A model generated the notes under the pieces. That model did not search any database. It was given only the letters and a program-made list of their open reading frames with translations, and had not been told where the DNA came from. Source: Ianthella basta (taxonomy: Eukaryota; Porifera; Demospongiae; Verongiida; Ianthellidae). From it: DNA of 64,000 bases. The stretch lies in contig OZ025884.1 in NCBI GenBank assembly GCA_964019415.1, positions 5,401,733 to 5,465,732 on the forward strand. Direction: 5' to 3'. Positions 215-40,904 of this stretch are shown in pieces (within the stretch, counting starts at the first letter, position 1; each line of letters begins with the position of its first letter). The translations under genes were made by a program, and so were the position numbers.

Positions 215-3636
<3,422 letters not shown>

Positions 3637-5956: not shown

Positions 5957-8252
<2,296 letters not shown>

Positions 8253-9840: not shown

Positions 9841-15909
<6,069 letters not shown>

Positions 15910-16163: not shown

Positions 16164-16396
16164 TTACAGTCTACGATGTTTCGAGGACTTCTTGCGGTCT
16201 TTTGTTAGAGCTTTCTCTGACTCATTCCACTTGTCCATCATTGCAGTGAGGAATGGTCCCATCTGGAAGTCCCCTCCGGACGGTCCTGAGGCTAAATCAG
16301 ACTCATCTGTGTCCAGAGTTTCCTGCAGTGGGTACCTGTCATCGTCAAATGACTCAGTTGGGTGGAATGCAGGATGAACAGGCCCACGAGGGTAGT

Positions 16397-16483
<87 letters not shown>

Positions 16484-19400
16484 GCGCATGGAGAGGAGGG
16501 GAGAAATCAGATGAGCATATCTCTCTAAATCAAGGCAAGCAAATACGCATACAAACATCATTATCTATTCTTGTACCCAACCCAGTGAGTGTCAGATGGA
16601 AACACAAAATAACTGCCGGCAGACTAGATTATAGTCTGGGGGCTAGCCCCTCCACCTCGCAGAAGGAGGGTCTGGCTTCACTTGTACAATGTTTTCGTGC
16701 ATAGTGGGTGGAGTAAACGCATAGACACGTTAATTAACGCACTCTACTCATGCCAGGTAACACTATATTACGCAACTAGCGACTGAAGACTGGAAGACTG
16801 AAGACTGATGACTGAAGCCTTTTCTCTTTCGCAGTGACCAATTTTCAGCCAAGTCTGCACCATCCCTCTGTCGTGGCCACAAGTTGCACGCTCCATTGGA
16901 CTGAATTTTATTGAGTCATGATGTAATGCGTTTATGTGTATACGTTACGTTTACAGTTTATGCGCGTTCTGCAGTCTGATGTGTCCAACAGGTGGATTGC
17001 AAAAGTCGGATCCTGCACGAAAACGTTGTACAAGTGAAGCCAGACCCTCCTCCGCGAGGTGGAGGGGCTGGCACGCCATACTAACTGGATTAGGAACTAG
17101 CCACTATCTTTAAGGTATGGTGGTGGTTTAGGATTGCTCTCTACCATATTGTCCCTAATTTTTCAGCCCCCTAATTGTTTGGCACCCGCCTAAATAGGAT
17201 CGAATCATACTCTAATTTTTGACGAAAATGGTTGCCCCTTATTGATGTCTCGGACTCTAATAAGTCGTCATCTGCTGCGAAGTCTAATGAATCGTCGCGC
17301 TCACCTAATTCAAGTTTGAAGTAGAGTGTTGTATCAGCTGCAGCCTCCCACTGCTCCATGTAAGCATGATACCCACGAACAGCTGCCTCGATCGTAAGCG
17401 AGAATTCGGCCATTTTGTTTCCTATTAGCTATTCCATCGCGTACTCTAATTCGTCATCATAATTTCCTAATTTTTCGGTGCACTTCCAGTCGCAATCTAT
17501 ATATTCCAAAGTGCCGGCTTTGATCTGTGCTTTATTATGCCGAAAAATTAGGAAAAATATGGTATATACTGTACTATACACAGCTGTTCGCTACACACCA
17601 TACATGACCTACGACAGTTGGTACATGGCATGTATGCCTGCTAACACACTCAAATGCATTACAGACAATGTCTTTTGCATCACTGTTGCAGAAAGAGTGT
17701 AATGGACATGATAAACAGTCAGACTATGAGCAGGAATGTGTCGACTACGCTAGCTAGTGGCATGCTATTTGAAGCAATGCCTGAGGTAGCTGTCTTCTAC
17801 AAAACTGGATTACATTTTAGCAGTTCTGTTGTGGGCTGAGCCAAGCTTTCCGAGCTTTCCAAGCATGTGCAATCCAGCTGAGCCAAAGCAAAGCGTCAAA
17901 GCCTTCGCAACTTCTCCGCGTATTCGTGCATCACTCATTTTGCTGGGTACTGCGGCCACAGATCTGCGCACGCACTGAATGTTCCTGGTCTGAGAGTGCG
18001 CAGGAACAGAAGGCGGCGACTCTGTTGCACAGCACTCGAAAGTACTACTGGGGCGGTGTGGAGAGGATACGAAGCAACTTCAGCCTTGTCTTACAATGAG
18101 ATTACCACCAGTTCCAACGCAGCTCCCCAGCAAGATGCACTAAAATTCAAATTGCGGGCGCTTATTTTTGGTAAATCACTTACTACACGCCTTCGATGGC
18201 ATACGGCATATTTACTGCACTCGCCCTCGGGCGCTTCACGCCTTTGGGTCTCGTGCAGTAAATGCCGTAAGCCATCGAAGGCATGTAGTAACTACTACTT
18301 ACAGTAGATTAGCTACAACACACAGCATTAAGATGGGAGGGCTTGTAAGGGCACAAAGTAGAGGGTGCCTGGTTGAAGGCCATTGTACATTTTCACATGT
18401 GTACATTGAGAGGGTGTGCAGAAGGTGTGCAAAAAGTGTACTAGCTGAATCTTTCTCTCACCATAAAGGCAGTTTCGTCCATTGGTTCCTCTTGATAGAG
18501 AAGGTTCATGTGAGGGTCCACTGCATGGAGAGAAGGCAATAACCCAAGAACAAATGACCACAATCTTCCCATGTTTACGTTGTAACACTTCACCATTTAA
18601 TATTCATTTCAATTTAATGAACATCTTTCCACTTCATACATTTCCGAGAAATTGGCCGTGGTACCCATAACAATTCTACGTAATTTGGCTGCCATTGCAC
18701 TGTAACAAGACCCGCAAGTAATGTATGTAGCAGTGGAATGGAGACCTCACCACCGTCCACCTGCACTGTATCTGCTTGCAAAAGCACAGTGCTTACCTGC
18801 CGTGAAGTCTGGCTCAATCTGGTCTACACCCCAGCCATAGTGTTCACCCTGCAACTGCTGACCAACAAAGTAGTCCCTGCACAAGGGATATAGCATGGAC
18901 AGCAGTGAAATGCACACATGGCAGGCAAATTGCTTCTACAAATGTGCAAGAGTATATAGCACCATTTTGAAGACCCAACGATAGTCAGGGCACCACCCGT
19001 GCCTGGACAGTCTTCCCCCAAACTCAACACTCTTCCCATGCACCAAAACACTCCTCCCCCACACTCAACACTCACTGGTTTGCTTCTTTCTGGTCCTTCT
19101 GTGCAAAGTAGCAGTAACAGCAAATGCAGAAGACCATGACGCAGACTGCCAGTACAAAGAATATCACCACCACAATCACTGCAATCAGTGTACCAGTGAC
19201 CACTGGTGGTTGTGTAGGGACAACAGGTGGTTCTGTGATGATATCACTTTCTAAAATGCAAATATTGCTGAACAGAGAGCCTTCTGCAAGGCGTGAGGTG
19301 ATGGTTCTCTGGAGCTTGTCGCCAAAGGCAAAGCTCTTGGTATAGTCCTGTGCTGTGTCCAAGGTTGGTACAAGAGGGCTGGTCCAGTTCTGGTAGAACT

Positions 19401-22400
19401 CACCAATCACAAAGTACACCAACACACGGGACTGAGTCCTATTGTATCGTGGTAGCAACAATAAAGGGCAGAGTGAAAGTACTTTATACACATACGGCAT
19501 CTACTGTAACAGTATAAATACACAATATACTGTAGAGCACAAATATACCACACTGTATGTACATGTATGAATATTTGCTACAGCAGACATGATTTGCGTC
19601 TAATGCATCTAACAACTGCAGTTGACACAGCAGCTAATCAGGGCTTCTCATAAGCTTGTGCAAACAGTAGTAGCAAAAGCAGGACAGTAAAAACTTACAA
19701 ACGTGTAAAGCGATGGATAATCACAATGCCTCATCTCCTGAACCTTGTACACATACAGTAATGCAAAGCTCTCTTGAGAGTGGAACATGGTGTCACAGTG
19801 TATAAGTAGCCTTACCTGCTGTCATCTTCGTCCTCCCGTTCTGTGATGTTGTGTACAAACAGGGATCCTGTAAACCCATTGCCATTGTACCAGTTGTCAA
19901 GGGCTGCTCTAAGACGCTCTTGGCTGTTCTGCAGCACTGTGGTCGAGTTACATGACTTCAGAATCAAGAGGTGGCTAGTGTTGTATATGTTTACTGCTAC
20001 AAATGCAGTTGCCCTACCCATCGCTGGTTGGTTGTTATCTTCTGCAATTACCTCAAAGAGGTACTTATGTGGCCAGTTCAGTGTGATAGGATTATTTGTG
20101 GTGATGGCACCATTTTCAGGGTTGACGACAAACGGAACTTCAGACCCAGCCTGAATCAACTGCCTTGTGTATCTTACTCTCTGTCCATCATGGTCAGTAG
20201 CAGTCACAACCAGCACTTCTTTGTCAACGAGTTCTCCAAACAGAACCTGAGACGTGTACACAGCTGTGGGAAACTCAGGAGGAGTATTCTGCACTCTGAG
20301 AGTAAAGGTGATTGTGGAGGAGAGGGGAGGCTGTCCGCCATCCATTGCATTCAGGATGATGCTGATGTCATGATATTCCTCTACAATAGTCTTTACAGCT
20401 TGTAATCTTGCAACAAACCTGCCAGATGAGGGATTCTCTCTGGCAACAGTAAACAGCTCCTCACTTTGCATTGGGGCATAAGTGAGGGTGAAGGAGATAT
20501 TAGCATTTGAGCCTTCGTCTGCATCTGTGACAGTGAGGGTGACTAGGAGAGAGTCTGGTCCTGCCCCAGGCAAGATGGATGCTTCAGTTACGGGGTTAAG
20601 GAAAACTGGAGGATTGTCATTGATATCAGTCACAGTTACCGTCACTGCAGCAGAGGCAGACTGACTGTCCAGTGCCAAATCTTCTGCAGTGACATTGAAG
20701 TTGTATTCTGGTGTCTCCTCTCTGTCTAAAATGGCCAGCAAAGACAGCTCTCCAGTGATGCTGTTGAAACTGAACACTGTGCTATCACCATCGATTGTGT
20801 AACGCACTTCACCATTCAACAAGAAATCAGGATCTTCAGCTACAAATATGCCCAGAAGTAATGCACCTGGATCATCACGGGCACCTTCCACTACACTGAA
20901 CAAGTATGAAGGTTCAGTAAACATTGGGGCATTGTCATTGATGTCTTGGACTACAATGCGCAGCAAAGCTGTTACATTCACCCTTGTCACTTGGTCAAAA
21001 ACATCAATCAGAAGGCGGTGCTCAGGAATTTCCTCCCTATCTAGTTTCATTTCATTGATAATGGTATTACTATTTGCCACACCAAACACTCCTTCATCAT
21101 TTCCCCCAATGATAGTATACACTGTATTGGGGGTAACATCAACAGCCTTCGCCTTCAAATTCTGTGTCAGATTGTAGCGGAAAGCACCAATGACATCAGT
21201 TTCAAAGAAGACAGCTTCAAGGAGAGTCACTTCACGTACAAACACATTGACACAAGCCCTGTCCTCCAACTCTCCATCAGTTACACGCACAGTGAAGTAG
21301 TAATTGGTGGACATGCCGGTGGGTATACTACCAATCAACGTCAGCTCTTGTGTGCTGTCATCCACATCAAACAGCTGAGTGACTACATCCAGTCTTCGGA
21401 GAGAGGGATCAGGGCATGGGTCTGCGCTCACTTGGAAGTCTAGTGGCTCCAGGTTGTCGGCATCGGAGGCTCTGAGCCTGGACAGTCTACTACCAATAGG
21501 GTCAGAATCTGTGATGTATATAACATACTCTGACTGGTTGAAGGTAGGTGGGTTGTCATTGAGGTTGTTCACAGAGACAGTGACAAAAGTTTGTGAGGTG
21601 AGCTGAGGAGAGCCATTGTCTGAGGCAACCACTTGGAGGATTAACCGGTTGAAGAGTTCATAGTCGATCTCATTCACAGTAGCAATCCATCCAGTAATGT
21701 TATCAATGGTAAAGAACTGGCTCTCTGGAGTCTCTACCAAACTGTAGCTGATTCGTCCTCCTTCTCCTGTGTCCACATCATCAGCTCGCACTTGTATCAC
21801 CATGACAATTGCATTCTCATCTATGATGGCTTGATAACCATCTAGCTGGGAGAAAACTGGTCTGTTGTCATTCACATCTATTACTTCTACAACAAGGGTG
21901 GCAAAAGCTTCATACTGGGCATCAGTTGCCATAATCACTATGCCATACTCAGTTCTGTTTTCAAAGTTTAGCTCTCTGTTGAGAATCATGTCACCAGTGC
22001 TTGCTTCTATTGAAAAGAGCTGAAGAACCTCATTGTCACTGCTTTGCAGTGCAAAGTCAGGGTCTGTCTGTGCGCCAAACATTAGTGCCATTTTTAAGTC
22101 TTCCCCATTGAAGATCACAGAACCAATAGTCTCATTCTCTCTCACAGCTGTCCTAAACACAGCTGGGATGAACCGTAAAGACTCAGAATCATTCACTTGT
22201 ATGTTGACAATGACTTGCACATTCAGTGAGAAAGCTGGGGTTCCCTGATCACTGACTTGCACTGAGAGATCAATAACACCTGGTAGTACTGTTCCAGTCA
22301 GCTCAAGGATTCCTTCGTCTACATTCCATGTGAATGTTGCTCCACCAAACGTGTCCTGACTCACAATAGTGTATGAGAGGTCTCCATTGGGTCCTTCATC

Positions 22401-25400
22401 AGCATCAGTGCAGTTAAGGGCAGCTAGAGACAACCTGTCATATTCACCTTCCACAATCAAGTGGACAAATGTCTCCTCTGTGCACATTGGCCTGTTGTCA
22501 TTGACATCAACAATGTCAATTGTGACATTGATTGAAGATGTTAAAGGCCCAGCAATCATGTCTCCATCATCAGCCTCAATGGTAAGCCTGAATGAAGGAT
22601 TCTCTTCACGATCCACAAAGGACACAAGTGAGACAATGCCCGTCAGTCGGTCAACCACAAAAGCCAGTATGTCAGGATTCCTCTCTACCACAGAGTATGT
22701 GATGACAGCACTTTGCCGATTGTCGGGGTCAGAGGCAATCACTTGGCCTATTGGTACTGCCATGTCTACTTCTGTGTTCTCCATCACACTAAACTTGTAT
22801 GGGAGTGTGGAGTTGGCGCCTTCAAACACTGGAGCATAGAAGTTGACTGCATTTACAGACACTACAATGCTTTGGGAAGTGGACATTGGAAGGCCTGCCT
22901 CTGTAGGGGGATTGTCTGTGCAAACTATTGTCAGAGAATGTTCACTTGTTTCTTCATAGTCCAGTGCTTTCAAAAGTTGGAGATTGCCAGTACGAGAATC
23001 AATTACAAATTGGTTGAACTGGTCACCTTCTATGGAGAAGCTAACAGGAAACCCATCCCTGTCAGTGCAAGTGAATCGAGCAAGCATCACACTGGTACGT
23101 TGATTCTCTTCCAGCGTGATAGCTGATGGACCTGTTATTACTGGCTGGAAATCATTGTTGTTAAGGATATTCACAAACAAGACCACATCTGTGAACATTT
23201 GGTTCACTCGAGAAGCATCGTATGCCCGAATGGTGAGATTGTACGCTGGCTGCACCTCATAGTCTAGCCGTTTGTTCAGAATTACTTCCCCAGTGCCTTC
23301 ATCAATGGAAAAGGTGCTGTTGATGTTGCCTCCAACTATTGCATATGTAATGCCTGTGGGCGTCTCCACATCAGTTGCATAGACAACAAAGATGACCACT
23401 GGAACAGATGCAGATTCCTCTACAGAAACGGATCCCATGAAGTTGACAAAGACAGGTGGTCTTTCGTTCATTGGTGTGATGGTGACAATCATTGTGGAAG
23501 TGTCTGAAAGAGAAGGCACTCCTCTGTCGCTGCACACAAATGTGAGGGTTTTCACAGGTAATGTGAGCTCGTCAACATTTGTGAAGATACGAGCTACAGT
23601 CTGACCTGGTCGAGAGGATAGGATTGCAAGCTGAAAGTTATCAGCATCGCCGGAACTAGTCATTGAAATGCTCAATTCTGCATTCTGATTGGTGTCTACA
23701 TCAATACAAGTGATATCTCCCACAATTGAGCCACTTGGCAATTCAACTGAAGCGAACACCACATACACCTCTTCACTAAAGTATGGTGCTTCGTTAACAT
23801 CAGTGACAGACACGTCTACATCAGCATACCCTGTCAAGCTGATGGGGGAGCCTCGGTCGGTGGCAGCCACCTCAAGGTTGTAAAAGGTTTGCCGTGTTGC
23901 ATTCAAACTACTAGCTATGGCCAGTGACTGACCACTGATGACAAAGTCACTGGATCCAATGCTGGTGGTGACTTGTAGAGAGAACTGACCATCATTTCCA
24001 CCGTCACGATCGGACACATTCAATTGCTGAATTGTGGACCCAGCACTGATATCTTCTGACACTTGAACAAGGTATACTGAAGGGTCAAACACTGGTCTGT
24101 ACTCATTGACAGGTTCTACGATGATGATAACTGTCCCTGTAGTCATCTGGGGAACAGTACCTCTATCACGGCACATCACAGTGATGTTGTACTGGGTCAC
24201 ACCTGAGTCGTAGTCAAGAGCTCCTATTACAGAGAGAACCCCGTCTGGAGTCACACTAAACAGCCCATCTGCAATCTGTCCACTGGGAATGCTGACAAAA
24301 GTCTCCCCGTTACTTCCTTCATCGCTATCTTCACAGATAATTGTTGACACTGAGGAGGGAGGTGAGATCGTCTCCTGTACAAAGATGGTCTGTTCTGCTG
24401 GGATTATCTCAGGCACATTATCATTGATATCTCGTACCCTGACAACAAGAACTGCTAGTGAGGAGTGTTCATTGGCTGTTGCTTGGATGATGACATGATG
24501 TACGGCTTGAACCTGACGATTCAGCGTGCCAGTTATCCTCACATCACCACTTGAGACATCTACTGAAAACTCTGAACCACCTTCAAACACAGTGAAAGTG
24601 ACTGGGCTAGCTGATTGTGTTTCAGCACTGACAGTGTACACAATCACATCAGTGTAGTCACCTTCGTCGATGGTTGTTTCGTATCTGTTGGATGGCACAA
24701 ACTGAGGTATGAGGTTCCTGTCTTCATAGATGGTGATTGCCACAGCGGATGTGAGTGCAATACGCCCACCTCTGTCTGCACAGTGGACTTTTACAGTGTG
24801 TACTGCAGGTGATTCAAAAGTGCTATTCATCACAAGCTGATTATTCACATCAAGGACAAATTTGGGAGAGGTAGTGGAGGCTATTGACAATGTGGGATCA
24901 CCAACTGGTACAGTGTCTTCATCTTCACAAGCAAACCGCTGCACCAGGAGACCTGCCCTTTCACTCACATGAATGTCTACAGCAGCAGCAGTAGGTGTCA
25001 AAACTGGGTTGTTGTCATTCACATCACTCAGCTGTATCACTAACTGAGCAGTGCTTGCTTCTCCACCCTCGTCCTCAACAATGACAGTCAGAGCATGTTC
25101 ACGAGAGGCTTCATAATCCAAAGGACGAATCACTGTTATTGAGCCATTATCAGAATTGACTTGGAATGATGGGTTGGGTTCAATCACACGGAAAGAGAAT
25201 ATGCCATCTCTGCCACTATCTCCATCCGTTGCTGCTACCTGACCAACAATGCTACCCACAGCAGTGTCCTCAGCCACATCTGGGATAGTATAGGTATCCA
25301 TTGTGAACATTGGTGGATACTCATTGACAGGGGTTACCCTGATCAGAGCAGTAGCTGTAGCTGATTGAGGTGGAGCTCCACTGTCACTGCAAGATATTGT

Positions 25401-28400
25401 GATGGTGTGATCCATGCTAGTTTCATAATCCAAAGCAGTGTTCACAAACACCACACCATCACTGCTAATGTCAAACAAACTGTTAGAGCTGGTCACTTGG
25501 TAAGATATCTCCGCATTTTCTGGCAAGTCCCCATCTTCACAGGTGACAGAAAGAACTGTTCTAAATCTGACAGCTGACTCACTGACAGTGCCTCGATAGA
25601 AGTTGCTTGGTGTGAAGACAGGTGCATTGTTATTCACGTCAGTCACTGTAATGGACACTAACACACGTGAATTCAGCTCATTGGGTCCCACATTCTGAGC
25701 AGAAACCAGAACGTAGTAAGTGCTCTTCTCAACAGCGTTGAGGCGTGCAGTGGTGAAAAGGGAACCTGAGGAGGGATCAATGCCAAACTGCTCTGCTCCG
25801 TCGCCCTCACCATCCACAATGGAATAACTTACACCAATGTTGATGTTGGCTGGTGTTGCAGATACCTGGAGAAAATCGCCAAGCACTGGATGATCTTCGG
25901 GTATGGAAGCATTGTAACTAGTCTCATCAAAGATAGGAGCACCTACACTAATAGGAGACACAATGATGACAACTTGTACAGATGATGATAGCATAGGAGT
26001 TCCTCTATCAGTGCAAAACACTCTTAGAGTGTAGACAGCTTCAGTTTCAAGGTCTCCTGTCAAGAGGATGCTGCCTTCATTGGTGATAGCAAACTTGTCT
26101 GAAGTGGGAAGGATGTCATAATCTATGAGTTGGTTCACACCTGAATCACCGTCTGAGCAGCTAACATTGACAACAGAGCCAAGGAGTGCATGGTCTGTCA
26201 AGATGGCAGCCTCATAAATAGGCTGACTGAAGACTGGAATATTGTCATTGGCATCCTCAACCTGGACAAACACAGTGGTTGAGCCAGTGAAGCGCTTGCC
26301 ATCAGGGGCAGTTGCTCCTCCGTCCACAGCCACTACTGTTAAGTTGTATTCATTGATTGTTTCAAAGTCCAATGCTGACAGAAGGCTGATATCCCCAGTG
26401 GTTGAGTTAATAAAGAACTTGTTTCCAAAGTTTCCACTTTCAATAGCATAAGAAAACTCTCCAAAGCTACCAATGTCAGAGTCTCTTGCCACAACTTGCT
26501 TCACTGATTCTGAGGCATTGAGGTTCTCTGGTACAGGAACAGTGTAAATATCCAGGTCAAATGTTGGAACATGATTGTTTTCAAATCGAACAGTGATGGT
26601 GACAATGCCTGATGCAACCTCAGGTTCATCTGTAGTGAGACTGTAGCAGATCACGGGAAGGACATGTACTGGTGTTTCGTCAAGCTGCTTCAACAAACGC
26701 ATTGTTCCATACTCGTCTGCACTAAAGAAATCAGAAGGTGGAATGAAGGTGAAATTGAAGGTATCTCCCCTTTGTAAGGTGTCATTGGAGCACTTTAGCT
26801 GACCAAATGGTTCATTCACGGGTGTATCATGGGCCACAATATACCTTCCTGAAGGTGGAGCCAAGTCTGAGCTCTCACTAATGTCCAAGACATTAATGAT
26901 AACAAGCACTTCAGAAAAGTTACCATTTCCGTCTGTAGCTCGGACAATAAGTCCATGCCTTCGCTGCAGCTCATAGTCTACTGAGAAGGCAAGCTGAAGA
27001 ATACCATTCTCACGATTAATTCTGAAATGGCCATCCTCATTCCCATCTGTGATACTGTATGTCAAAGCTGTCCCACTGGTTGTCTCAGCAGAGATCTGTG
27101 TGAAGTTGTTCCCTACTGGGGAATCCTCAGGAAGGTTCCATTGGTAAACCACCTGAGAGAACTTCGGATTACCAGGACGCAGAATAGCAATGAACACCTG
27201 TCCTACAGTGGAAAACATTCCATCTGTGCAAGAGATATTAGCTGTGTAACTGGTGCCACCACTCTTAGTGAGGTCTTCGTTGACCACAATGCTGTACTGA
27301 CCAGAGCCTCCTTGAGTAGCAAAAGGAATGTCAATTGGGTCTTGTGTTACAGTGACAACACCGAAGCTGCCAGAGTCATCATCTTCACACATGAATTCTA
27401 GGATTGAAGTTCCCATTGAGGTGGTAACATTCACAACAGTACCATAAATACCACTTCCACTGAGCTCTGGAGCATGGTCATTGACATTGTTAATGGTGAC
27501 TGTGACAGTAGCTGTGTCTGACAGAACATCAGACCCATTGAAGCTACCTCCATCTTCAACAATAACTGAAAAGACAAACATGTCCAGCACCTCAAAGTCC
27601 ATGGGGGCAGTTACAAGGATCAACCCAATTTCAGGATCCACATAGAAATCTGGGTTGTCTGAAGCAAGCCTGTACCTCAAACTGTCAGTGGGACTGTCAC
27701 TGTCGGTTGCAGCTACAACACCAATTGAATCCAGCACTGCAATGGTCTCATCAATGGTAAAGCTATATTCAGAACTTCCAAACATAGGTGGGAACTTGTT
27801 CTTACGATACACTTCCAAAACCACGTCTACTTCACTCCTTAGGGATGGTGAACCAAAGTCTGACACCACAATTGTGCTGAGGAAGGATGTTGAAGGTTGA
27901 AGGGGGCCTGCCACCGACACAGTACCATTGTTGGAATCAACTGTGAATGGTGCTCCAGATGTTGAAGGGCTCACACTGTACATTAGCCTCCTATTTTCTC
28001 CCACGTCTGCATCAATACAATTCAGCTGTGCCACTACAGTGCCCACCCCAGCGTCACTTAAGACTGGTACAGTTAGGTACATTGGAACACAGAGTGGATG
28101 GTTGTCATTCACGTCCTGCACTACAATAGTAGCATTTGCACTGCCAACCATGGGAGTGAATGGATCCCCATCAGTGGCCACCACTTGGAAGTTGAGTGAC
28201 GAAATTCTTTCCCGATCCAGTGTGTTGGCAAGGAGAACAGCCCCAGTTTCTGAGTTGATTCTGAAGAAACTTGCATCTGGTCCAACAAGGGAATAAGAGA
28301 CCTGACCTTGAATCCCACGATCACTGTCTGTAGCTGTTACGTTAGCAAAGTTGGTACCAATGGCACTATCCTCCTTCAACATCCAGCTGTAGGTTAACTG

Positions 28401-31400
28401 TTCAAACATTGGGGCATTGTCATTTCCAAACAAAAATGCTATTTGCACATCAATATCTGTTGTCCTTCTGGGGTCAATGGTGTCAGTAACAGGGACTACA
28501 AACTCATAGAACTCTTTAGTCTCCTCTGAGCTTGATGACAGGCGTACACCCAAAGTGATCTCTCCATTTTGTCCCACATTAAATTCAGGATTAAAAGGAC
28601 TAAGGTTACCTGCTCCCCGTGAGTATGTAACATCATCAGACCTATCCCCACCAGAACAGTTGAGTTGCAAGACAATGGCACTGACGGGTGTTCCGTCATC
28701 AACATAGCCAATATAGAGAGGTTGGGTACAGATTGGAGCACGCTCATTAACATTCCTCACAAAGACAGTGAATGTAGTGGTAGCTGACATGCGGTTAGCA
28801 CTGTCTTCTGCTCCATCAGTCACCACAATGGTGAGTTGGTGTGACTGTTCCCTTTCAAAGTCCAGCAGTCTTAGCAGCTTCAACTCTCCTGTGGATGGTG
28901 TGATGGTGAAGATGTCATCTTGGTTTGTGACTGGATCAATGGAGAACGTCAGTTTGCCATACAGTCCGGGATCATTATCAGATGCATTAAACTGCTGTAG
29001 CACTTCAGTCAAATTGTGTGATTCAGGCACAGTAACATGAGGAGGTGGATCCACAAACATAGGTGAGTGACTGTTGATTTCAATAATACTGATGATGACT
29101 TCAGTGATGCTGCCCAGTATGGGTACACCACTATCTGAGCACTGAATTAAGAGGCCATAGTTGTCAAATTCACGTTGGAGAAGATCACCTGCAACCCTTA
29201 TTTCTCCACTGGAACTGTCCACAAGAAATAAGGTGCCCACTGCTTGGTTGAGCAGGGTATATGTTATCACAGTGGGAGTCTCAAAGTCAGCGTCTGTACA
29301 GCTGACCACACCAATAGTGAAGTTGACAGCTTGTGTTGCATCAACAGTGAAATTGTACATTGCGCCTTCTGGAAACTTTGGAGGCTCATCATTTACATTT
29401 ACCAGAAATGTTAAAACATTACTAGAGTATGTTCTTCTGTCCGGATCATTATTGCCAGAAGCAGCTCTATCATAAGCCATGACCATCAGTGGGTACCCTC
29501 TGGCTCCAGTATCATAGTCCAGTGCTTCACTGACGGTAAGCTCACCAGTTGGTGCAAGGCTGAATGGCACAGACTCTGACACAAGCTCAAATCGCACATT
29601 GCCATCTTCCCCAGCATCCCCATCAGTGGAAATGAGGGTTGTAACTCTGTAACCCACATAGACATTCTCTAAAATGTTAAATGTACCATCACCAAGAAAT
29701 GTTGGGCTGTGCTCATTGACAGGTAGGACATTGATCATGACCAAAGTGGTAGCTGCAAGAAGTCCATCAGAGCACTGGATAGTGAGGGCAAACCCTCTTG
29801 TGCCTGCATCATAGTCCAGCTGCCTCCCAGCCAGAACAGCAAGGCTGCCTACTATCATACCCCTGCCATCATCTGCAATGCTCTTTGAACTCACAGAGAT
29901 GCCAAATATTCCTTCGTCATTGCCTTCACTGATGGTCATTGTGAGAGGGTCATTGAAATCCACATCATAACAGGGTACATCAAGAAGCTGTTCCCCTAAG
30001 CTGGGTGAGGAAGACTCAAGGATTCCAATGGGTTCCACAGTGGTTGGAAGGGTGGGAGCTGTGTTGGCACTAATGAGGATTTGAAGTAAGACACTGTCAC
30101 TCAGTGATGGCACTCCGTTATCTTCCACTGTTAGTCTGTATGTAAACTGCAGAACTGTGCTTCTGTCTCCAAGGTCTATTTCTTGGCCATTCATTGGGTA
30201 GATGCAGCTAGCTGTGCTATTGAAGGCAAAATAAGCTGTTCGTGTACTTGGTACTGGGGTCAGGGTGAAACGCAAAGTACCTTCTGGGGTGTTTGCACCA
30301 TCAGCATCTTGAGCATCAACAAAATACACACAGTCAGTACTGTTGAGGTTATCTGGTTCAACAGTGATGGTAGGTTCCAGGTTGACAAACTCTGGGCGGT
30401 TCAAATTTGTTGAGTTAGCAGAAATCACCACTGTGGCAGTGGCTGACAGTGATGGGGAACCAAAATCTGTACATAGGACTTCAATGTAATAGTATGCCTG
30501 AAGTGGTGTCACTGTGGTTACAAGAAATCCAGCCGAATTCAGTTCAAAGTCCTGCACAGTACCAACAATGGACATTTCCACTTGGCCTGCACTACCAGAA
30601 TCCTCATCAGTGCATGTAAACATGACCGCCACAGAACCCACTGCTGAGTCCCGCTGCAAATTGGTTACAATAGCATCAGCCGGACTGATGCGGGGATGCA
30701 CATCATTCACATCAATAACATCTATCGTCACAGTGGTGAAATCGCTCTTCTGCTCTGAGCCACTCTCATCATCAGGTGGAATGATGTTTGTTGCTTGCAC
30801 TGTGAGAATGTACTGGGTCTGGGTCTCATAGTCCAGTGGATTCACCACTCTAATGACACCAGTACTACTGATCGAGAACCTTTCTTCTGGGTCCCCAGAT
30901 GTAATGCTGTAGACCGGAGTGCCATAACTGACAAAGTCACCATCAGAGGCTATGACTTGGATAACAGATGATACAATTCTTCCCTCTATGACACTCTGTT
31001 GGTAATTGTCACGTGAAAACACAGGGGCAAAGTCGTTGAAAGGCAGAACAGTCACACGCACACTGGCAGTTGCACTAAGTCCATCAGAATCTGTGCAAAC
31101 AACAGTGAACTGATGCTGCAATAGAGATTCTACATCAAGCACTGATTTAGTGCTTAGAGCACCACTTGTATCATCAATGATGAAGCTGTTAGTGCCTTCC
31201 AGAGAATAAATTAGACTCCTACTAGTATCAGCATCATCGTCCACATCAGTACAGCTGATTCCCACAGGAATCAATAGTGGTGGGGGCTGAGACTCTCTGG
31301 CCTGTCCAAAGTAGATGGTGTCAGAAAACATTGGACCAGCATCATTCTCATTCAAAACAGACACCGCTACTGCTACTTCTGCTGAGGCACCATCTGGTTT

Positions 31401-34400
31401 AGTTGCACGTACTGTAAAAGTGAAAAATCGGTCTTCTGGGTTCTCATAATCCAATGCTCGCAAGAGTCTCAGCTGTCCAGATGAAGCAGTAATGAAAAAT
31501 GTGCTGTAATTCCTTCCCACTATCTCATAAGCAAAACTATCTGTGATGTTGTCATATGCTTCAATGTTCCCAACAACGTGCCCAGCAACAGCTTCTAACT
31601 CGGGAACATTGAATGAATAAAGGTTCATAGTGAAGCGAATTTCTTCCACACGAGGAGTGACACTGACTATCACCACTGAGGATGCTGTCCTTGGTGGGAT
31701 TCCTCCATCTGAACACATCAGCTGCACTATGTATGGTCTGGCTTCAAGTGGCTCAGTTGCCTCCAGAAAGCCAAGAGGCAAGCTGGTGCTCAAGCGAAAT
31801 GGTACAGGGTTCTCATCACCATTGGTTATCACAATCTCCTGTACTCCATTTGGTCCTGAATCCCTATCTGTACAATTGACAGTCTCAATCACAGTTGTTA
31901 ACGAAGCATTCTCCCGCACAGACACAATGTATACTTCTTCAGTGAACACTGGGTTGTTGTCATTCTCATCAGTGATGAGGACTGTAATGGCGGTGATTGA
32001 GGAACGCGCCATGAACTCATAGTCCTGTTCGCCATTGTCTGTTACTTCAATCTGCAGACTAAACATTGTGTCTTCTTCATAGTCCAGGTTGCTGATCAGG
32101 AACAGTTCACCAGTAACCTCATTCAGTTGGAATTTCTGCTTCTCATTTCCACTAATAATGTAGTATCTGATGGTATCATGAGGAAAGTCATCAGCATCGT
32201 CTGCAGTAATCTGTTTCACTTGAGCTCCAACGCCAGTGCTTTCTGATATCATTGCTTCTGTACTACTAGTGATCTGTGGGGCAAATTCATTCACAGGCAA
32301 CACTTCAACAAATACAGTTACTTCATCTGTCAGTTCACCGTCAGAGCAGGTGATAGTGAGAGTGTACTGAGAGGCTTGTTCATAGTCAGGTACCATTCCA
32401 CCTAAGAGAGAGATTCTACCAGTTGAACCTGACACTTCAAACAATGAATTTGCACTGATGGAGTATTGTACCGTTCCAAATGGTTGTGAATCGTTGTCAA
32501 AGCATTCCACTATTGCATTCTGCAGGCCTTCAGTAGAGCTTTCATTGAGGCTGAGAGTGAAAGTGTCTGTAATGAAGACTGGCAGATTGTCATTTTCATT
32601 CAAAACATTTACTTGGGCCTGCAGTTCATTGTAGATCATGGGGTTAGTGCTGAGAGACGCCCGAATGATCAGTGAGTAAGTTGTTACTGTCTCATAGTCC
32701 AAAGGACTCTTCAGCCTCACAATACCTGTCCTCTCTTCAATGAAGAATGTATCATGTGTCATACTGTATACAACTGTGCCTGAGGCACGGGCAATAACGG
32801 TTAGAATGCGAGTGTTCTTGCCTTCGGCAGTATCAAACACAGGTGTTGATTCTCTAAATGTGACCATAGGTGTTGCATCAACAAAGGTGATGTTTGGGGT
32901 ACCTGCTGACACTAAAATTGAAACTGATGACCTGGCTGTGAGCACAGGCAAACCAGAGTCTGCGCACTGCACATCAAAGACATATAGCATGTCTACCTCT
33001 GGTACAGTGCTGACAACGACTATGCTACCAGCTGTGGTGACACTTAAGAAACTAGGAGCAGACAACAGCTGCAGTGTAACTGGTCGTGTTGGAGTGAATT
33101 CAGTGTCTGTACAGGTGATTTGTACTCCAGTAGCACCCAGTCCATCAGATGACCGGATGGTGCCCGTGTACAGGTCCTCAGACAGCTCTGGAGGAAGGTC
33201 ATTCTCATTCTCTACTATGACTGTAAATGTGGCAGTAGAGCTTCTTGACATTATGGCATTATCCCTTACTGTAACAGTCAGACTGTAGCTGTTTCGTCTC
33301 TCAAAATCCAAAGGTGCAGCTGTCACTACATCACCATTGGCCAGAATACCAAAGTCTGCATGGTCAGTGCCATCCAAGAAGACAAAAAACTGTCCATCTC
33401 GATGAGTGCTTCTATCTTGGTCACTTATTTCAAATCTGTAAAAGCTGGAACCCACCGTTATGCCCTCTGAAATAGTTGCTTGCAAGTCAGTATTCAAAAT
33501 CATTGGAGCATGCTCATTGACAGGAATGATACTAACCCTGACCGTTACTTGTATAGATTGGGCCGGGGTTCCTCGATCTGATACATTGATGGACACACTC
33601 AATTCTTCAAACTGCTCAAAGTCAATCATGGGAGCAACCGTTATAGTTCCATCACTACTTACAGTGAAGAAGTTTTCATGTGGTCCAGGTTGAACATTGT
33701 AGATGATGGTGCCACTGACACCATTGTCCCGGTCATCACAGTCCACAAGACCTGGATATATGGTCTCCCCACTGCCCTCCAAAACAGTTGTGAAGTAGGT
33801 CTCTTGGGTACAAACTGGAGCAAAATCGTTCACTTCACGCACAAGGAATGTTAAAGTTGATGTCACCGTAGTGTCTGGGTCTGCTACTGAAACAGTGATG
33901 TTGAAGGTGTCAGTATCTGAAGCATCAAGGGCACGAAGTAGCCTCACATTGCCCTCATTCCCAATCAAAAAGAAATCCATTGGGTCACCCGACACCTCAC
34001 TGAAAACTAGGTTCCCAAAGAAACCTGTATCAGGGTCACTGGCACTAATAGTGAATATCACACTGGAAATAGCTGTAGATTCGTCAACCATGATAACTGC
34101 AGGAAGATTCTCAAATGAAGGTGGTCCAACATTAACAAGGTCAACTACCACAGTCACATAAAACACAGTGCTGCGTTTCACATCCACCCCATTGTCAGTA
34201 GCTGTGATTTCCAGCAAGTGCCTTGTAGCCGAGCTTGAAGTCAGGTTTTCCGTCACTATCAGACTGGAAGGGGGCATTATGCCAAACAAGGGGTGGTTGA
34301 GTGCATAGCTAACCTTTCCATTTTCCCCAACATCCACATCCACACAATTCAGTTCTGCTATAACCGAGTTAGGCTCACGACTTACTTCAACCTGGAACTC

Positions 34401-37400
34401 TCTCCCATTGATTAGAGAACAATTGGGCTCATTGTCATTTACATCTTGAACGAACACCGTAACATTCACAGTGACATCCCTAGTGTCCGAAACAGTCACT
34501 GGGAAGAAATAAGTGGTGACTAAATCCGCATCAAGTGGTGTTCTCAGGCGAATGGTGCAGTTTGGGTAAGAATTGCTGGTGTAAAAGATGTCCTGGGCAA
34601 TATCATCATTGATAGTACACTCAAACTCGTTTTCATCGAAGTTCTCTGTGACAATGTTAGACACAATGTCATTTAGTTGCAGGTTCTCTGGAACGGACAC
34701 TACAATATCATCAGCATTTCCAGGAGTGAGTATGGTTGCATTGTCAGGAACAGCCGCAACACTGATAAAAACATCACCAGTTTGGATTAGCTGTGGGTCA
34801 CCATTGTCAGAACATTGTATGCCAAGTGTGAAACTAAGGCTAGCCACCCCTTCTGGAACGATGATAACATTTGCTATTGAAATAATACCAGTTTCATTGT
34901 TGATAGCAAAATGCCGATTGGGGCTGTGAAAGGAGTAAGTGATGAGAGAGTTGACAGTGTTGGGAGCATCAGCATCAGTGCACCTCAGAGTATGGACCAG
35001 GGAGCCAATTGGGTTATGTTCTAGAGTATTTAACGAAATGGGTCCAAATCCATCTACCCATTGTGGTCTGTTGAAGTTTCCATCAGTGACGACAACAGTT
35101 ATAGGTTCCACCGTGGTAAAGGTGCCATCCGACACTGTGACATTGTATTCAAATTGTGAAATCAAACTTTCAGAAAGGTCTTGTCTCAAGAAAAAGAAAG
35201 CATTTTGCATTAAATCACTTGTCTTTACCACATCAAATGTAGAGGTTGCTGGCTCCAGTGTGTATGTCAGAGTACCTCCAATACCCTCATCTCCATCAGT
35301 TACAGACAAAGTTGAAATAACAGATGGCAGAGTGGTCTTTGAGATACTGAAATCAAAAGGGGCATTGGTGAAGACTGGTCTGTGTTCATTCACTGCCAGG
35401 ACATTGATGACCACATCTGCTGTAGCAGTGTCAGTACCATCTGTGCATTGTACCAAGAAGCTATAGCCTACCCGCTCTTCGTAGTCCAAAGTTAGGCCAG
35501 AACGCAAGGTGACAGCAGTTGGTGATACTTCAAACATTTGTTCTGCGATTAGATGATCAACAATAGTGACAGTCAGTTGACCCCCAATGTATAGATCACT
35601 ATCACTGCACATGATAGCTAGTACTTCTGCCGGCCCAGTCAAGCCTTCACTAACTTCAGTCTCATATATGTTCTGATCAAACACGGGACTATCATCATTG
35701 AGAGCTCTTACAATCAAAACATACTGCTCAGCCAGGCAGTCAGTATTATCTGTATCACCATCACAAATGGTTATTGGAATAGTGATCTTACAGTAAGGAC
35801 TGGTTTGTGTTATGCAAGCCATTGCTGGAAAGAGAGTAGTGTCATCGGTATTGAGTTCAGAAGTAGAAACAAGAACACTGCGCTCATTATCGATGGAGAA
35901 GAGGTTACTCAGTCCTGACAGAGTATAGCGAAAAACAGAATTCCTGTCTCGATCACTTACATTCACATTCCGTAGACCATCAACACTGCTGTTAAAACTG
36001 ATGACCACACTTCCAATAGGCAGGCTCTCATCTGCTACAAAGAATTTGGACCCATCTGTCATTGGTGGATACTCATTAACATTCTCAATTATCACATCGA
36101 GTGGTGCAGTACTATTCAAGATTGGCTGATCCATATCATAGCACTGAAGTGTTACAGTGTAACGAACAGGACCAATGGTTTCATAGTCAATGGGAGCAGT
36201 AGAGGACACATTCCCTGTGTCTTCATCGATGACCAAATTGAAGGCAGATGGAATTGGGTCTGGATCTACTTGAGTGATACGGTACTTGATGGTAACTGGA
36301 AGATCTTCTGGATCCTGACACTGGGCTTGAAAGAAATTCTCTGGGATGATCAATGGTGGAACAACAGCATTTGACTCAGGCACGGTGACAGTATACGAAG
36401 CACTAGCAAAGGTTGGTGGCATGTCATTCACATTCTCCACCTGCACAAAAATAGTAACTGTGCTAGTCAGTGGTTGGCTGGCATCATCCACAGCTTCAAT
36501 GGACAGTCCAAATTGGGAGAAATCACCTTCAAAATCAAGGGCCTGCTTTAGGGTTACCTGTCCAGACATGGAGTCCACCAAAAAGTATTGACTGTTAGAT
36601 GCAAAGTCAACAAGGCGATAGGATACACTATCTCCATCATCGTCAGTGGCATTGACATCAAATATTACTGTGTTCACTGCAGTGTCTTCAGGGAGGTTCA
36701 GTGACACATGGGAAGAGTGACTAAATTGTGGTGCCCTGGTGTTGTTTGAGGTGACTGCGATGTCTATGAAGGCTACGGCTGTGTTTACTCCATCAGTACA
36801 AATGACAGCAAGAAAATAACTTCCAAGCAGACTGGATCGATCCACATCCTGAGCCAGAAAAATGGATCCATTTGATGGCTCAATGTAAAAGGTGCCTGTA
36901 GCTCCGCTGGATATGCTGTACGAAATCACATCATTCACATCTTGATCGGTACAACGTGCATTAAATACTGCCATATTCAAAGGGTGGCTTCGAGCAATAG
37001 TAACCATAGCACTACTCTCAGTGAACTGCGGACTATTGTCATTCACATCCTCCAAATTAATTCTGATGGCAACACTTGAACTCTGTGTGCGATAGAAATC
37101 CTCAGGCCCATCTCTAGCAGTGACAATCACGGTAAGGGAAGGAGACGACTCTCTATCAAGTTCTTGGGTAGAGACCAGCGTGTACTGGCCATTTCCCAAT
37201 GACTGTAGCAAGAATCTTGCAGAGGCTCCACCAGTTATCACAACAGTAATAGTGTCTTGTGGATCAGGGTCAGTGACAGTAAAAGTACCCACTTGAGTGT
37301 TGGAGTCTTTGGTTTCTGTCACATTGAATACAAGAGAAGATGGGAGAACAGGGGGCCCTATGTTGAGTGCTTGAGCAACAACAGTCACACCAGCAGAGTC

Positions 37401-38014
37401 CGCCATGGGACTGTCTCCTGCGTCTGGACTATCAAAGCACAGTACAGTGAACTGGTACTCCTCTGTCGGACGGGTGGAAGTGATATCTTGCATCCTTCGA
37501 ATTAGCCCACTTGCATCTACAGCAAGGAACTGACTACCATTTTGTGGGATAAATTCTTGAGCAGTGAATTGTAATGTATTGTAAGGGGCTGCATCGGAGT
37601 CAGAGCACATGGAGGATATGTCGTATGTTGATGGTTCACCTTCATAGGGTAGGTAGACGGTGTAGGTGTCCCGTGTGAAGACAGGGGCATGATCGTTGAT
37701 ATTGGTTACCTGAACAGTCACGGTTGCAGTAGCAAGTGTACTGCCATTCAAGGCATTCATAGCCTCAACCACTAGTTCATACATGGATCGGGTTTCAAAG
37801 TCCAAGGTGCCCATGACCAGCAGAAAGCCTGTGTCATTCACATATAGCACACTATGCCCACCAGTCTCACCAAACACAATATCATCCAGTGATGGATCAC
37901 CCACAATATGAAATTCATAAAGAACTCCTGTCGTAAGCTCAGGAACAGTCAATTCAACGTTGGATCCACCAGTAAATTGGGCAGAATCCAGTGAAGGTTG
38001 AAGTGTAACCAACA
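16164..38014 (-). CDS. Giant transmembrane cadherin (about 57 EC repeats), 5' exon(s) not found
   Basis: Five exons join in phase on the minus strand: 19816-38014, 19076-19438, 18797-18876, 18462-18520 and 16164-16397 (TAA), about 6,300 residues. The ectodomain is a run of about 57 cadherin repeats of about 105 residues, counted from 56 linker motifs (DVNDNSPQF, NENDNLPVF, PVNEHAPMI and so on) and from calcium-site motifs of DxD and LDxE type (for example LDYE and LDFE). A membrane-adjacent domain, one transmembrane helix and a tail of about 130-150 residues follow. Cadherins of this kind bridge cells or act as long extracellular tethers; the partner here is unknown. No laminin-G or EGF domains are seen, which separates it from Fat and CELSR. 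It is closest in architecture to CDH23/Dachsous-type proteins but roughly twice as long. The signal peptide exon should lie between 38,015 and about 42,100. Confidence 0.9.
16399..16490. repeat. (GT)n microsatellite abutting the last cadherin 3' splice site
   Basis: In the transcript this is (CA)n running straight into ACACACAG|GACTAC, so the usual polypyrimidine tract is replaced by CA repeat. Confidence 0.9.
16632..17083. mobile_element. MITE-like element with long terminal inverted repeats
   Basis: 16632-16702 and 17008-17083 are inverted copies of each other over about 70 bases, with few mismatches (shared core CCCTCCACCTCGC and GGGTCTGGCTTCACTTGTAC). Ends read TAGTCTGG and CCATACTA. The interior has a GACTGAAGACTG micro-repeat near 16780-16820 and no transposase. 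It lies in the last cadherin intron. Confidence 0.75.
17144..17562. mobile_element. TA-flanked inverted-repeat element carrying an ORF
   Basis: The left end CCATATTGTCCCTAATTTTT and the inverted right end CCATATTTTTCCTAATTTTT match over about 24 bases. Both are flanked by TA (17142-17143, 17563-17564), the target duplication of Tc1/mariner-type elements. CCTAATTTTTC(A/G)G recurs inside at 17469. It lies in the last cadherin intron. Confidence 0.7.
17171..17413 (-). CDS. 80-residue ORF inside the TA-flanked element, function unknown
   Basis: An 80-residue frame beginning MAEFSLTIEAAVRGYHAYME. The VRGYHxYxxxW pattern at its start resembles the N-terminus of a recurrent invertebrate family that I recall only loosely; no catalytic motif is visible. 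The rest is acidic (GERDDSLDFAADDDLLESE). It fills most of the element between the inverted repeats, so it is probably a captured or decayed gene piece. It has no splice link to the cadherin. Confidence 0.4.
   Translation of the reverse strand: MAEFSLTIEAAVRGYHAYMEQWEAAADTTLYFKLELGERDDSLDFAADDDLLESETSIRGNHFRQKLEYDSILFRRVPNN
18171..18302. repeat. Long hairpin (foldback), about 60-base arms
   Basis: 18171-18230 pairs with 18245-18302 (shared CCTTCGATGGC, TACGGCAT, TTTACTGCAC), with a GC-rich loop. It lies in the last cadherin intron. It could be a foldback transposon remnant; a small-RNA precursor is possible but unproven. Confidence 0.7.
19816..38014 (-). other. Single 18,199-base exon encoding the cadherin ectodomain
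   Basis: An uninterrupted frame of 6,065 full codons. The 3' splice site is CTCTTTACAG|TGTTGG (boundary 38015/38014) and the donor is GACAGCAG|GTAAGG (19816/19815). Both give the phase needed by neighbouring coding sequence: the downstream AG + G makes Arg, followed by TQSRVLVYF. No internal stop or frameshift is present. Repeats diverge strongly from each other, so this is an old expansion. Confidence 0.93.
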
Positions 38015-38390: not shown

Positions 38391-40904
38391 GTTTCTGCTA
38401 GGTGATTGCTCAAGAATTTGCCCAGTCCTACTTATGTTGTATTTTCCATATGTGTACAAAATTTTGCAGGACATTAGCTTTCCATAAATTTTGCCAGTTA
38501 GCAAATGTTTGTGAAAACAAAAATGCAAATCTCCCCATATTATACCGGTATTAAATGTTAGGGGAATGCAGGACTTCACAAAAAAATGCTCAGGCAAGGA
38601 GCACCTGCAACATATATACAAGTCCCGTGATATTTGTATGTATATGGTAACTTAGTAGTTTCATGTGAGATAGACCTTGTAGCAAGTGGGAAAATATACA
38701 TAGGCATACAGTAGTTACACAATTTCTTGTCCTGCTTGTGCAATGCACATCACACGATTACAGTGATTTGCACGTGCCACATGATATTGCTCCGCATGTG
38801 TTTTTCTCCAATCTTAAGTACAGGGGCACGCTCTCTTCCTGCCATATATATTATCTTTGGAGAGAATGATGCAGGTGAATGGATGGAAATGATGTATCAA
38901 TATCACGGGGCATGTGCTAGTCAGTGTGCATTGTGCATATATCGTACAGGGGTTGCATTGCATGAGTGGGACTAGAAATTGCAAAACTACTGTATAGGTA
39001 CACGCTGGTGTAACAGTTGGACTGATAGTAATGATATCGTACGACAGCGCAAATTCCTTGGAAGCACAAAGTAAGTACCTATCTATTGCTTGATACACAT
39101 GATGACAGGTAGTCAGAGTCTACTTCATTCATGTCTCATAAACACAAGATCAAGTGCAAGTGTATACACCTTTAGTTCCAATCAATTGGCCACCAAGTCT
39201 ACTGATGGCACCCTGTGATCGAAATAATATGGTTGGCCATCAGTAAATTACTATACGTTAATATTAGAAAGACCATAAGTAGTCCCATGTGGACAGTAGG
39301 TGTATACAGATGACCAATCGAACTCAATGGTGCTACATACATCTTTTGACGGCACAGTAATTATGCCGTATTTTGACCACAGGCACCCAGAGCATATACC
39401 AGACCTGTAGGCTGGGGGGTCGGAAGTTCCACTTTGGCTGGACCAGAACCCCCCATTTTCTGACCAGGCTATAGGCCTGACTAGCATTCAGAGACAGGCA
39501 TTGGATACATGACACAGGGCACTTTTCTGAAGGGCAAGGATCCCTCACCCCCCGCCCCTCAACCATATTCTGTATTATCTGTACACGCAGTCTGCCCTGG
39601 TTGCGCAGGGGATGTGACTATGCTGGAGTTAAAACATGTGGGTCAGACCATACAATACTGCCACCATCAGCATGTGTTCACTGAACTGTGATAAGGCCAA
39701 CATTCCAAGGTCAGGTCTACTGATAAACACCTCTGGTGGAACTCTACATAAGCCTTCAGGGAGAAAGTAGAAATTTCTCCATTGAGTGGTATAAGGAAAT
39801 TAGGGTGTTCTAAGGGTTGCGCCAGTGCAAGGAAGGCGGGCAATGCAAATGCGAAATGGTTTGGACACGGTAGAAAGGCAGGTGAGCACTGGTAAGCACA
39901 CTGCCAGTTCGCATTCTATGCCAGTGGGGCGTGCAGGGCATAGGAAAGGTCTTCGTCTCATTCTCCCGCTAGACGTAGGCAGCTATACTCGCAGCGCGTT
40001 GGGTTATCAGCTGAAGGGAGTTTGAGGCGGGCATGAATACCCAGAATGGCTCACCTGCGAACAACAAGAAGGCGACCGTTCCTCGGTGCCGGCTCCCCTC
40101 CATGGTGCTCGACTGAGCGCCAATACAAAGCCTGTCAGCAGTTGGTTTTCGTTCTGTCCAACTTTGCTACTGAAAGAGGTTGGAAAACAGAGAGTGAACT
40201 GCACATTTGGGGTGAAGCCAGATGAACGCACACTTGTAGATGCAGAAACAGGCGCGCGCTGTTGGTCTTCCACACATGGCAACAAGCAAGCGTCGCCTGG
40301 GGCTAAAGTAAAGGCCTTACCTGGTGTTATGTTTCCTTCCAATGAGCAAGGTGTCGCTGCTGGGACGAGGAAAATGTAGAAAAGTAGGTCTCGCTGCTAA
40401 AGGGCGTTCCTTGTCGAAATCATGCTCCGGACGCGCCCCACGAGTAAAGCGCGTAAACTATGAATTTCATTACACTATCCCCATAAACAATGAATATCGA
40501 TATAGCACCCATATAAGGGCAATCTGAGCTCAACTCGACAGGAAGCAACGCGGACAGCACAACAACACAACGCATGCGGCCATGATGTGGAACGATAAAC
40601 AATACTAAATTTAGAAGTAACGATATTCATACATATGGCCTGCTTACAATATCAACCGGCACATTGCATTGGAAGGAATGCTGTGTACACATCACACCTG
40701 GTGTAGGTAAAGAAGTAACAGCAACTGTTGCCATTTATGCATTAATATTGTGCATCGTACATGTATATATGCAATGTACAGTGTCTGTGCACAGAATGCA
40801 AGGCCTACACCAGTACAGTTGATTGGCATAAGGTAGCTATAACCCTTGTTCTCAGGACATCTGCATGAATTATATAGATCCTCCAGGATTCTATAATCTC
40901 TACA

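Follow-up and report, generated by a model that had tools for sequence, protein, structure and literature searches.

What holds together a cadherin in which every second extracellular repeat carries its own pair of cysteines? The question is raised by a 64,000-nucleotide stretch of the genome of the sponge Ianthella basta (positions 5,401,733 to 5,465,732 of contig OZ025884.1; G000:C17:5401733-5465732), hereafter the window, which we analyzed together with the 209-Mb assembly of 96 contigs to which it belongs. All of the repeats described below fall in a single open reading frame of 6092 codons, which runs on the minus strand from 38090 to 19815. Within this frame lies a giant exon of 18.2 kb, from 38014 to 19816, and we take these two positions as its limits because they coincide with an acceptor, CTCTTTACAG, at the start and a donor, GTAAGG, at the end. 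A self-made profile of the extracellular cadherin (EC) repeat recognizes 57 repeats in the exon, every one at E <= 1.4e-9; because that profile was built on repeats of the gene itself and its relatives, these values carry some circularity. With Pfam PF00028, one half of the protein yields 22 stretches (E 0.001) and the other half yields 23 (E 1), and the tandem repeats match it above the curated cut-off, which places the gene in the cadherin superfamily. We refer to the window gene as A, to its three paralogues as B, C and D, and to other cadherins of the same genome as E1, F1, G1, H1 and H2. The product of gene A is probably a giant cadherin anchored in the membrane, with an ectodomain made up of two-EC units in tandem.

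The cysteines of A follow a strict rule. With strand names taken from an earlier sequence-only reading of this DNA and from published EC motifs, profile column 50 is the alanine of the AxDxD motif (strand B), column 105 the alanine of AxDxG (strand F), and column 26 the aromatic residue after the linker proline (strand A). A column map of every cysteine places one at column 50 in all 25 even-numbered repeats from EC2 to EC50 and in none of the 26 odd-numbered repeats from EC1 to EC51. Its partner is Cys105 in 20 of the even repeats and Cys26 in the remaining five (EC12, EC14, EC30, EC32 and EC50); no even repeat has cysteines at all three columns, and none has the A-F combination of columns 26 and 105. 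For EC12, the profile assigned the A-strand cysteine to column 133 of EC11, but it is the cysteine of the EPNC motif and is counted with EC12. Among the 24 odd repeats inside this block, 21 are free of cysteine, the others being EC7 with four and EC11 and EC25 with two each, and the only cysteine pair outside the block is that of EC53. The exon total is thus 61 (50 + 4 + 2 + 2 + 2, plus one that is membrane-proximal).

Column 50 is the sole column invariant across the 25 even repeats, despite an identity of about 22% among them; the ligand columns 52, 54 and 107 are retained in 23, 23 and 24 of these repeats. Under random placement, 25 cysteine repeats among EC1 to EC51 would all be even in 1 of C(51,25) cases (~4e-15), and five A-strand cysteines would fall exactly on the five repeats without an F-strand cysteine in 1 of 53130. 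The pattern is therefore not due to chance, but such figures cannot tell selection apart from the passing down of an ancestral two-repeat unit. The map agrees with the sequence-only reading, which had described an alternation over about 49 repeats (EC2 to EC50 here), a B-F placement in 20 of 25 cysteine repeats, an A-strand cysteine in exactly those five that lack the F-strand one, and three repeats of the other class with cysteines of their own. A larger super-repeat of 18 ECs, hinted at by the A-B repeats 12, 14, 30, 32 and 50, was considered and rejected, as similarity at lag 18 is unexceptional (z 1.0).

A second alternation runs through the calcium ligands of the linkers. Linker motifs were set by hand and checked by script, with the first ligand of DxNDN counted as D or N. 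Over EC1 to EC50, this first ligand is present after 22 of 25 odd repeats compared with one of 25 even repeats, and the fourth ligand (D) after 19 compared with four. Linkers after most odd repeats are canonical or nearly so (DVNDN, NENDN, DENDN); those after even repeats are of the PVNEH, AVNEH, SNNTR or LVNVG types or lack the motif altogether, and the XEX and DRE ligands contributed by the even repeat are frequently lost as well. By automatic alignment, the mean number of the nine ligands is 8.08 after odd and 5.0 after even repeats, with 0 of 100000 permutations as extreme. In the worst linkers (after EC16, 20, 34, 38 and 42), the ligands of the following repeat are also lost, and over all 25 linkers, loss on one side goes weakly with loss on the other (Spearman 0.42, P 0.04). 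The cysteine and calcium-ligand alternations share one phase. Across all 56 linkers, the first ligand is missing after 27 of 29 cysteine-bearing repeats compared with two of 27 cysteine-free ones; among the 31 repeats outside the even block, a post hoc comparison gives three of four compared with two of 27 (P 0.008). Judging from the motifs, this loss of ligands probably amounts to a loss of calcium at the linkers that follow even repeats.

Both patterns recur in the paralogues. B and C (6078 codons each, arranged tail to tail) and D (3446 codons) lie about 0.8 Mb from A. B and C each share 93% identity with A, at a synonymous divergence (dS) of 0.12-0.13 and a ratio of nonsynonymous to synonymous divergence (dN/dS) of 0.26-0.28. 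Among A, B and C, 10.3% of 6065 columns are variable, yet none of the 61 exon cysteines differs; at this rate, the 50 paired cysteines would all escape change with a probability of 0.004. The ligand columns 52, 54 and 107 vary at one, two and one of 54-57 positions, likewise below the average, so the comparison speaks for constraint and not for one peculiar to cysteine. A few single cysteines have been gained in B and C. No even repeat of A, B or C (25 in each) or of D (13) is without Cys50. By automatic counts, in which an unaligned residue is scored as lost, ligand loss follows 24 of 25 cysteine repeats and three of 31 other repeats in each of B and C, and 13 of 13 compared with two of 18 in D. 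The exon start of D runs directly into the equivalent of EC25, and the first 24 ECs and the last EC are absent relative to its relatives. The 24 absent repeats are a whole number of two-repeat units, the remaining phase is intact, and the membrane helix of D is in the same frame as its EC array. All three paralogues keep the cysteine and linker patterns, D with one cysteine fewer.

Other cadherins read in this genome lack these features. They comprise 253 repeats, of which 183 come from E1, F1, G1, H1 and H2 (identity between H1 and H2, 97%) and the other 70 from portions of four further cadherins. None of the 240 repeats among them that reach column 50 has a cysteine there, compared with 88 of 203 in A to D. 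In E1, F1, G1 and H1, cysteines and ligand loss are not linked (four of 37 compared with 10 of 89 scorable linkers), and mean ligand counts are nearly equal by repeat parity. A genome search with EC11-EC14 gave high identity in A, B and C only (95% in B and C), the others reaching at most 33% (119 of 278 candidates scored), and a search of prokaryote genomes gave 74 pattern matches and no relatives. Giant cadherin frames are also found elsewhere in the genome. Two cadherin-containing open reading frames of 8415 and 8413 codons (G000:C22:3013804-3039048 and 3048478-3073716) are 97% identical, lie about 9 kb apart and have about 100 cysteines each, outside the alternating pattern of A. Two giant frames of more than 8000 codons (G000:C21:6251002-6275889 and 4531054-4555998), in which 41 and 36 EC repeats were found, also contain long stretches outside the coverage of the EC profile.

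The sequence-only reading had further proposed that the cysteines bond within a repeat. This proposal gains support from the even number of cysteines in every cysteine-bearing repeat of A, the one-for-one swap of columns 26 and 105 against a constant column 50, and the conservation of all 61 cysteines across A, B and C, from which we infer that the pairs are bonded within one repeat. In the parts of the open-access literature on which we draw here and below, EC1 of PCDH15 and CDHR5 is described as having a disulfide that joins strands A and F (PMC8691648), and therefore the A and F positions of an EC repeat can bond. The F-strand cysteine of PCDH15 EC1 aligns to profile column 105, and its A-strand cysteine is placed before the start of the profile. 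By analogy, the A, B and F positions may form one cluster below the upper calcium loops, of which PCDH15 uses the A-F pair and A uses B-F or A-B.

Bound calcium makes cadherin linkers rigid. Since the calcium joints run in the same phase as the cysteines, the likely design is a rigid pair followed by a loose joint. With moderate confidence, we favor a reading in which A consists of two-repeat units with a calcium joint inside each unit, a calcium-poor joint between units, and a disulfide in the second repeat. The first repeat of a unit (odd and mostly cysteine-free) would be tied to the second by a full calcium linker, and the second (even) would be closed below its calcium-binding loops by an internal disulfide, B-F in 20 cases and A-B in five. 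The calcium-poor linker that follows would leave a looser or bent joint, so that the ectodomain would consist of about 25 stiff rods, each of two repeats, strung together at such joints. In mechanical terms, the disulfide may stand in for the calcium missing at the lower end of the even repeat, and bending or pulling at the loose joint would then not peel strands A and B off that repeat. In PCDH15, the EC9-EC10 linker, which lacks calcium, makes a bend of about 90 degrees and behaves elastically in simulation (PMC5120219), bendable sites of Drosophila N-cadherin were related by the authors to linkers predicted to be calcium-free or partly so (PMC8325961), and calcium-starved PCDH15 unfolds stepwise, with the authors proposing that strands A and B may come undone (PMC11459131). 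The sequence-only reading had put forward a two-repeat unit, which the alternation supports, and had said that it stiffens every other EC. That description was incomplete, as it missed the calcium joints that alternate in the same phase (24 of 25 linkers without the first ligand after even repeats, compared with three of 25 after odd ones).

Several observations weigh against this reading or are neutral to it. Mutual information among 180 repeats without Cys50, calculated in two runs of 4868 and 5569 column pairs, ranks pairs 26/50, 50/105 and 26/105 at 491, 591 and 682 of 4868 in the first run and at 635, 370 and 755 of 5569 in the second, which leaves them outside the strongest pairs, in about the top 7-14% over both runs. 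The link between cysteines and linkers has exceptions in both directions: EC6 and EC11 combine cysteines with the ligand, and EC13 and EC56 are devoid of both. Many linkers after even repeats still carry Asn3 and an acidic residue at position 4 (NE in eight of 25, D in four of 25), so that some of them might hold one or two calcium ions. One F-strand cysteine has been lost in paralogue D, which has also gained several single ones and so may be under weaker constraint. The pairs outside the even repeats were ranked by the same covariation measure: the EC11 pair 63/83 stands at 5 of 4868 with its own row included and at 51 of 5569 without the two rows that have cysteine at both columns, the EC53 pair 71/118 at 27 of 5569 with its own row included, the EC25 pair at 1946, and the best of the EC7 column pairs tried at 192.

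As an alternative, the pattern might be a relic of ancestry, left by the copying of a two-repeat unit that happened to have a disulfide in one half and, after that half, a weak calcium linker, with no joint mechanical meaning. A two-repeat unit is the simplest origin for such an array, and an even repeat resembles other even repeats, and an odd repeat other odd ones, slightly more than repeats of opposite parity resemble each other (identity difference 0.0059, P 0.006), an effect of parity that is absent in the controls F1 and G1. Without the cysteine and calcium columns, the difference falls to 0.0041 (P 0.053; BLOSUM P 0.02). This excess is marginal, and therefore any copying of units is old and nearly erased except at the cysteine and calcium positions. 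Repeat identity within A is about 22%, or 18-19% outside those columns, yet Cys50 persists in every even repeat of all four genes, so something keeps it. The link between cysteines and linkers is also weakly present outside the alternating block. We consider a mere relic a possible but rather unlikely explanation, and as an account of origin it is compatible with the two-repeat design. Old inheritance with continued selection on the cysteine and calcium positions is the best reading of these data.

A second alternative places the role of the disulfide at the other end of the repeat, where it would clamp the upper calcium joint by pre-ordering the ligands at the linker leading into the even repeat, rather than replacing calcium below. 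Columns 50 and 105 adjoin ligand columns 52/54 and 107, which are well kept in the even repeats, and pre-ordering is suggested because the cysteines precede the DxD and xDx ligands by two residues. The same ligands, however, are present without a cysteine there in other cadherins of the genome, and the extra cysteine repeats 7, 11, 25 and 53 use other columns, three of the four lying above ligand-poor linkers. As the sole role of the disulfide, such clamping seems improbable to us, and it may act together with replacement at the lower end. It is very hard to credit that the cysteines are free or bonded between neighboring molecules, for instance in cross-linking a coat or matrix: disulfide-linked dimers of refolded PCDH1 have been described, possibly rare or artefactual according to the authors (PMC6769022), but each cysteine repeat of A has an even number, A- and F-strand cysteines swap one for one, and their positions hold small or aromatic residues in most odd repeats.

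Staples within a repeat and calcium-free linkers are each known singly in cadherins, and what they mean mechanically has been argued from few examples, such as PCDH15 and Drosophila N-cadherin. Fat, Dachsous and CDH23 have 27 to 34 ECs together with EGF/LamG domains. In contrast, A has 57 ECs, and the stretch that follows them up to the membrane matches neither EGF nor LamG: joined across the predicted exon boundary and taken through to the tail, it gives only Cadherin above the Pfam cut-off. Cadherins of the CDH23/PCDH15 type have a ferredoxin-like domain adjacent to the membrane; near the membrane of A, sequence searches for such a domain gave no Pfam match above the cut-off and a best PDB match, unrelated, at E 0.2. 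Like A, the Fat, Dachsous and CDH23 proteins are long single-pass EC arrays, and the ectodomains of Fat4 and Dchs1 are reported to be partly flexible (PMC9935876). PCDH15 and CDHR5 share with A a staple inside one EC repeat, with the F-strand cysteine of PCDH15 at the same column, but theirs is an A-F bond described for EC1, at the tip (PMC8691648), whereas A has B-F or A-B pairs in 25 repeats in strict alternation. The PCDH15 EC9-EC10 linker and Drosophila N-cadherin resemble A in losing XEX, DRE and DxNDN ligands at a linker (PMC5120219, PMC8325961); a single such linker or a few per chain are described there, compared with 24 of 25 alternate linkers in A, each after a cysteine repeat. The conserved disulfide in the E-F loop of protocadherin EC1 has likewise been proposed as a "staple" of a calcium linker (PMC9935876, PMC6769022), but as presented in those sources it is a single local loop at other positions and without alternation. 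Among the listed matches in the open-access cadherin literature on cysteines, disulfides, calcium linkers, and sponge and choanoflagellate cadherins, in the parts consulted, we did not meet a strict double alternation over about 50 repeats. Annotated animal genomes may well contain a comparable pattern that has drawn no comment.

The remaining features of the gene are listed in Table 1. The EC array would be anchored by a hydrophobic helix in the exon after the giant one, with the splicing predicted from genomic sequence, and this exon aligns with the equivalent exon downstream of B and C. A GTGAGT donor follows it at the identical place in A, B, C and D, and therefore the cytoplasmic tail probably continues in further exons; a search for these beyond 19076 found none.

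Table 1. Features of gene A in window coordinates, with the location of its paralogues
Feature	Position	Strand	Basis
Giant exon: 57 EC repeats and membrane-proximal stretch	19816..38014	-	Open reading frame, EC profile, Pfam PF00028, splice signals
Next exon: remaining membrane-proximal stretch, hydrophobic membrane helix, cysteine-rich start of cytoplasmic tail	19076..19438	-	Paralogue alignment, splice sites, translation
Candidate first exon (putative), signal peptide start MEGSRHRGTVAFLLFA, 49 bases	40055..40103	-	Scan; phase fits giant exon
Alternating block, EC2 to EC50: 25 cysteine repeats and 24 between	22185..37709	-	Column map
EC7, odd, four own cysteines; linker after it ALNDD, without first ligand	35727..36086	-	Column map, linker reading
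EC11, odd, pair 63/83; canonical linker after it, an exception to the rule	34419..34703	-	Column map, linker reading
EC12, A-B type pair, including A-strand cysteine	34131..34421	-	Column map
EC14, A-B type pair, columns 26/50	33495..33842	-	Column map
EC25, odd, pair 44/84; linker after it without calcium motif	30069..30416	-	Column map, linker reading
EC30, A-B type pair, columns 26/50	28440..28760	-	Column map
EC32, A-B type pair, columns 26/50	27792..28115	-	Column map
EC50, A-B type pair, columns 26/50, final repeat of block	22185..22514	-	Column map
EC51 to EC57, no alternation; first ligand kept in four of six linkers 51 to 56	19977..22175	-	Column map, linker reading
EC53, pair 71/118, outside block; linker after it without calcium motif	21228..21572	-	Column map, linker reading
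Paralogue cluster: B and C in tail-to-tail orientation with 12 kb between them, D next to C	G000:C17:6202870-6268442

Elsewhere in the window, long CA/TG microsatellites lie around the gene (7972-8118, 13593-13733 and 16354-16506) and read as TH and VC runs in translation. Upstream of the cadherin gene, a minus-strand frame at 44517-45125 contains a piece of a cyclic-nucleotide phosphodiesterase domain. An open reading frame at 2305-3402, also on the minus strand, encodes ankyrin repeats followed by leucine-rich repeats. In the wider genome, 34 matches to Wnt exons were found, including a tandem run at G000:C16:1991483-2026924 in which six match the C-terminal part of the family; Wnt genes are a marker of animals. 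Innexin gave two weak matches, and a silicatein-like motif, searched with a pattern too narrow to carry much weight, gave none. A calcareous or homoscleromorph sponge, suggested by the Wnt run and the innexin matches, is a guess on which nothing here relies.

An EC repeat is about 4.5 nm long, and 57 of them would extend to about 250 nm if straight. Such a length suggests either bridging across a wide gap or a folded coat. More generally, the array could follow a two-repeat building code: over some 50 repeats, calcium and an internal disulfide would strictly alternate in securing the lower end of each repeat. We offer this code tentatively. If the two-repeat design is true, a string of calcium-stiffened rods with calcium-independent joints would constitute a mechanical or length-adjustable adhesion filament. 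Its roughly 25 copies in fixed phase, with both kinds of joint adjoining as internal controls, would allow a direct test of how an EC repeat is kept stable without calcium. It would also be a modular filament, in which the number of units could determine stiffness and calcium response.

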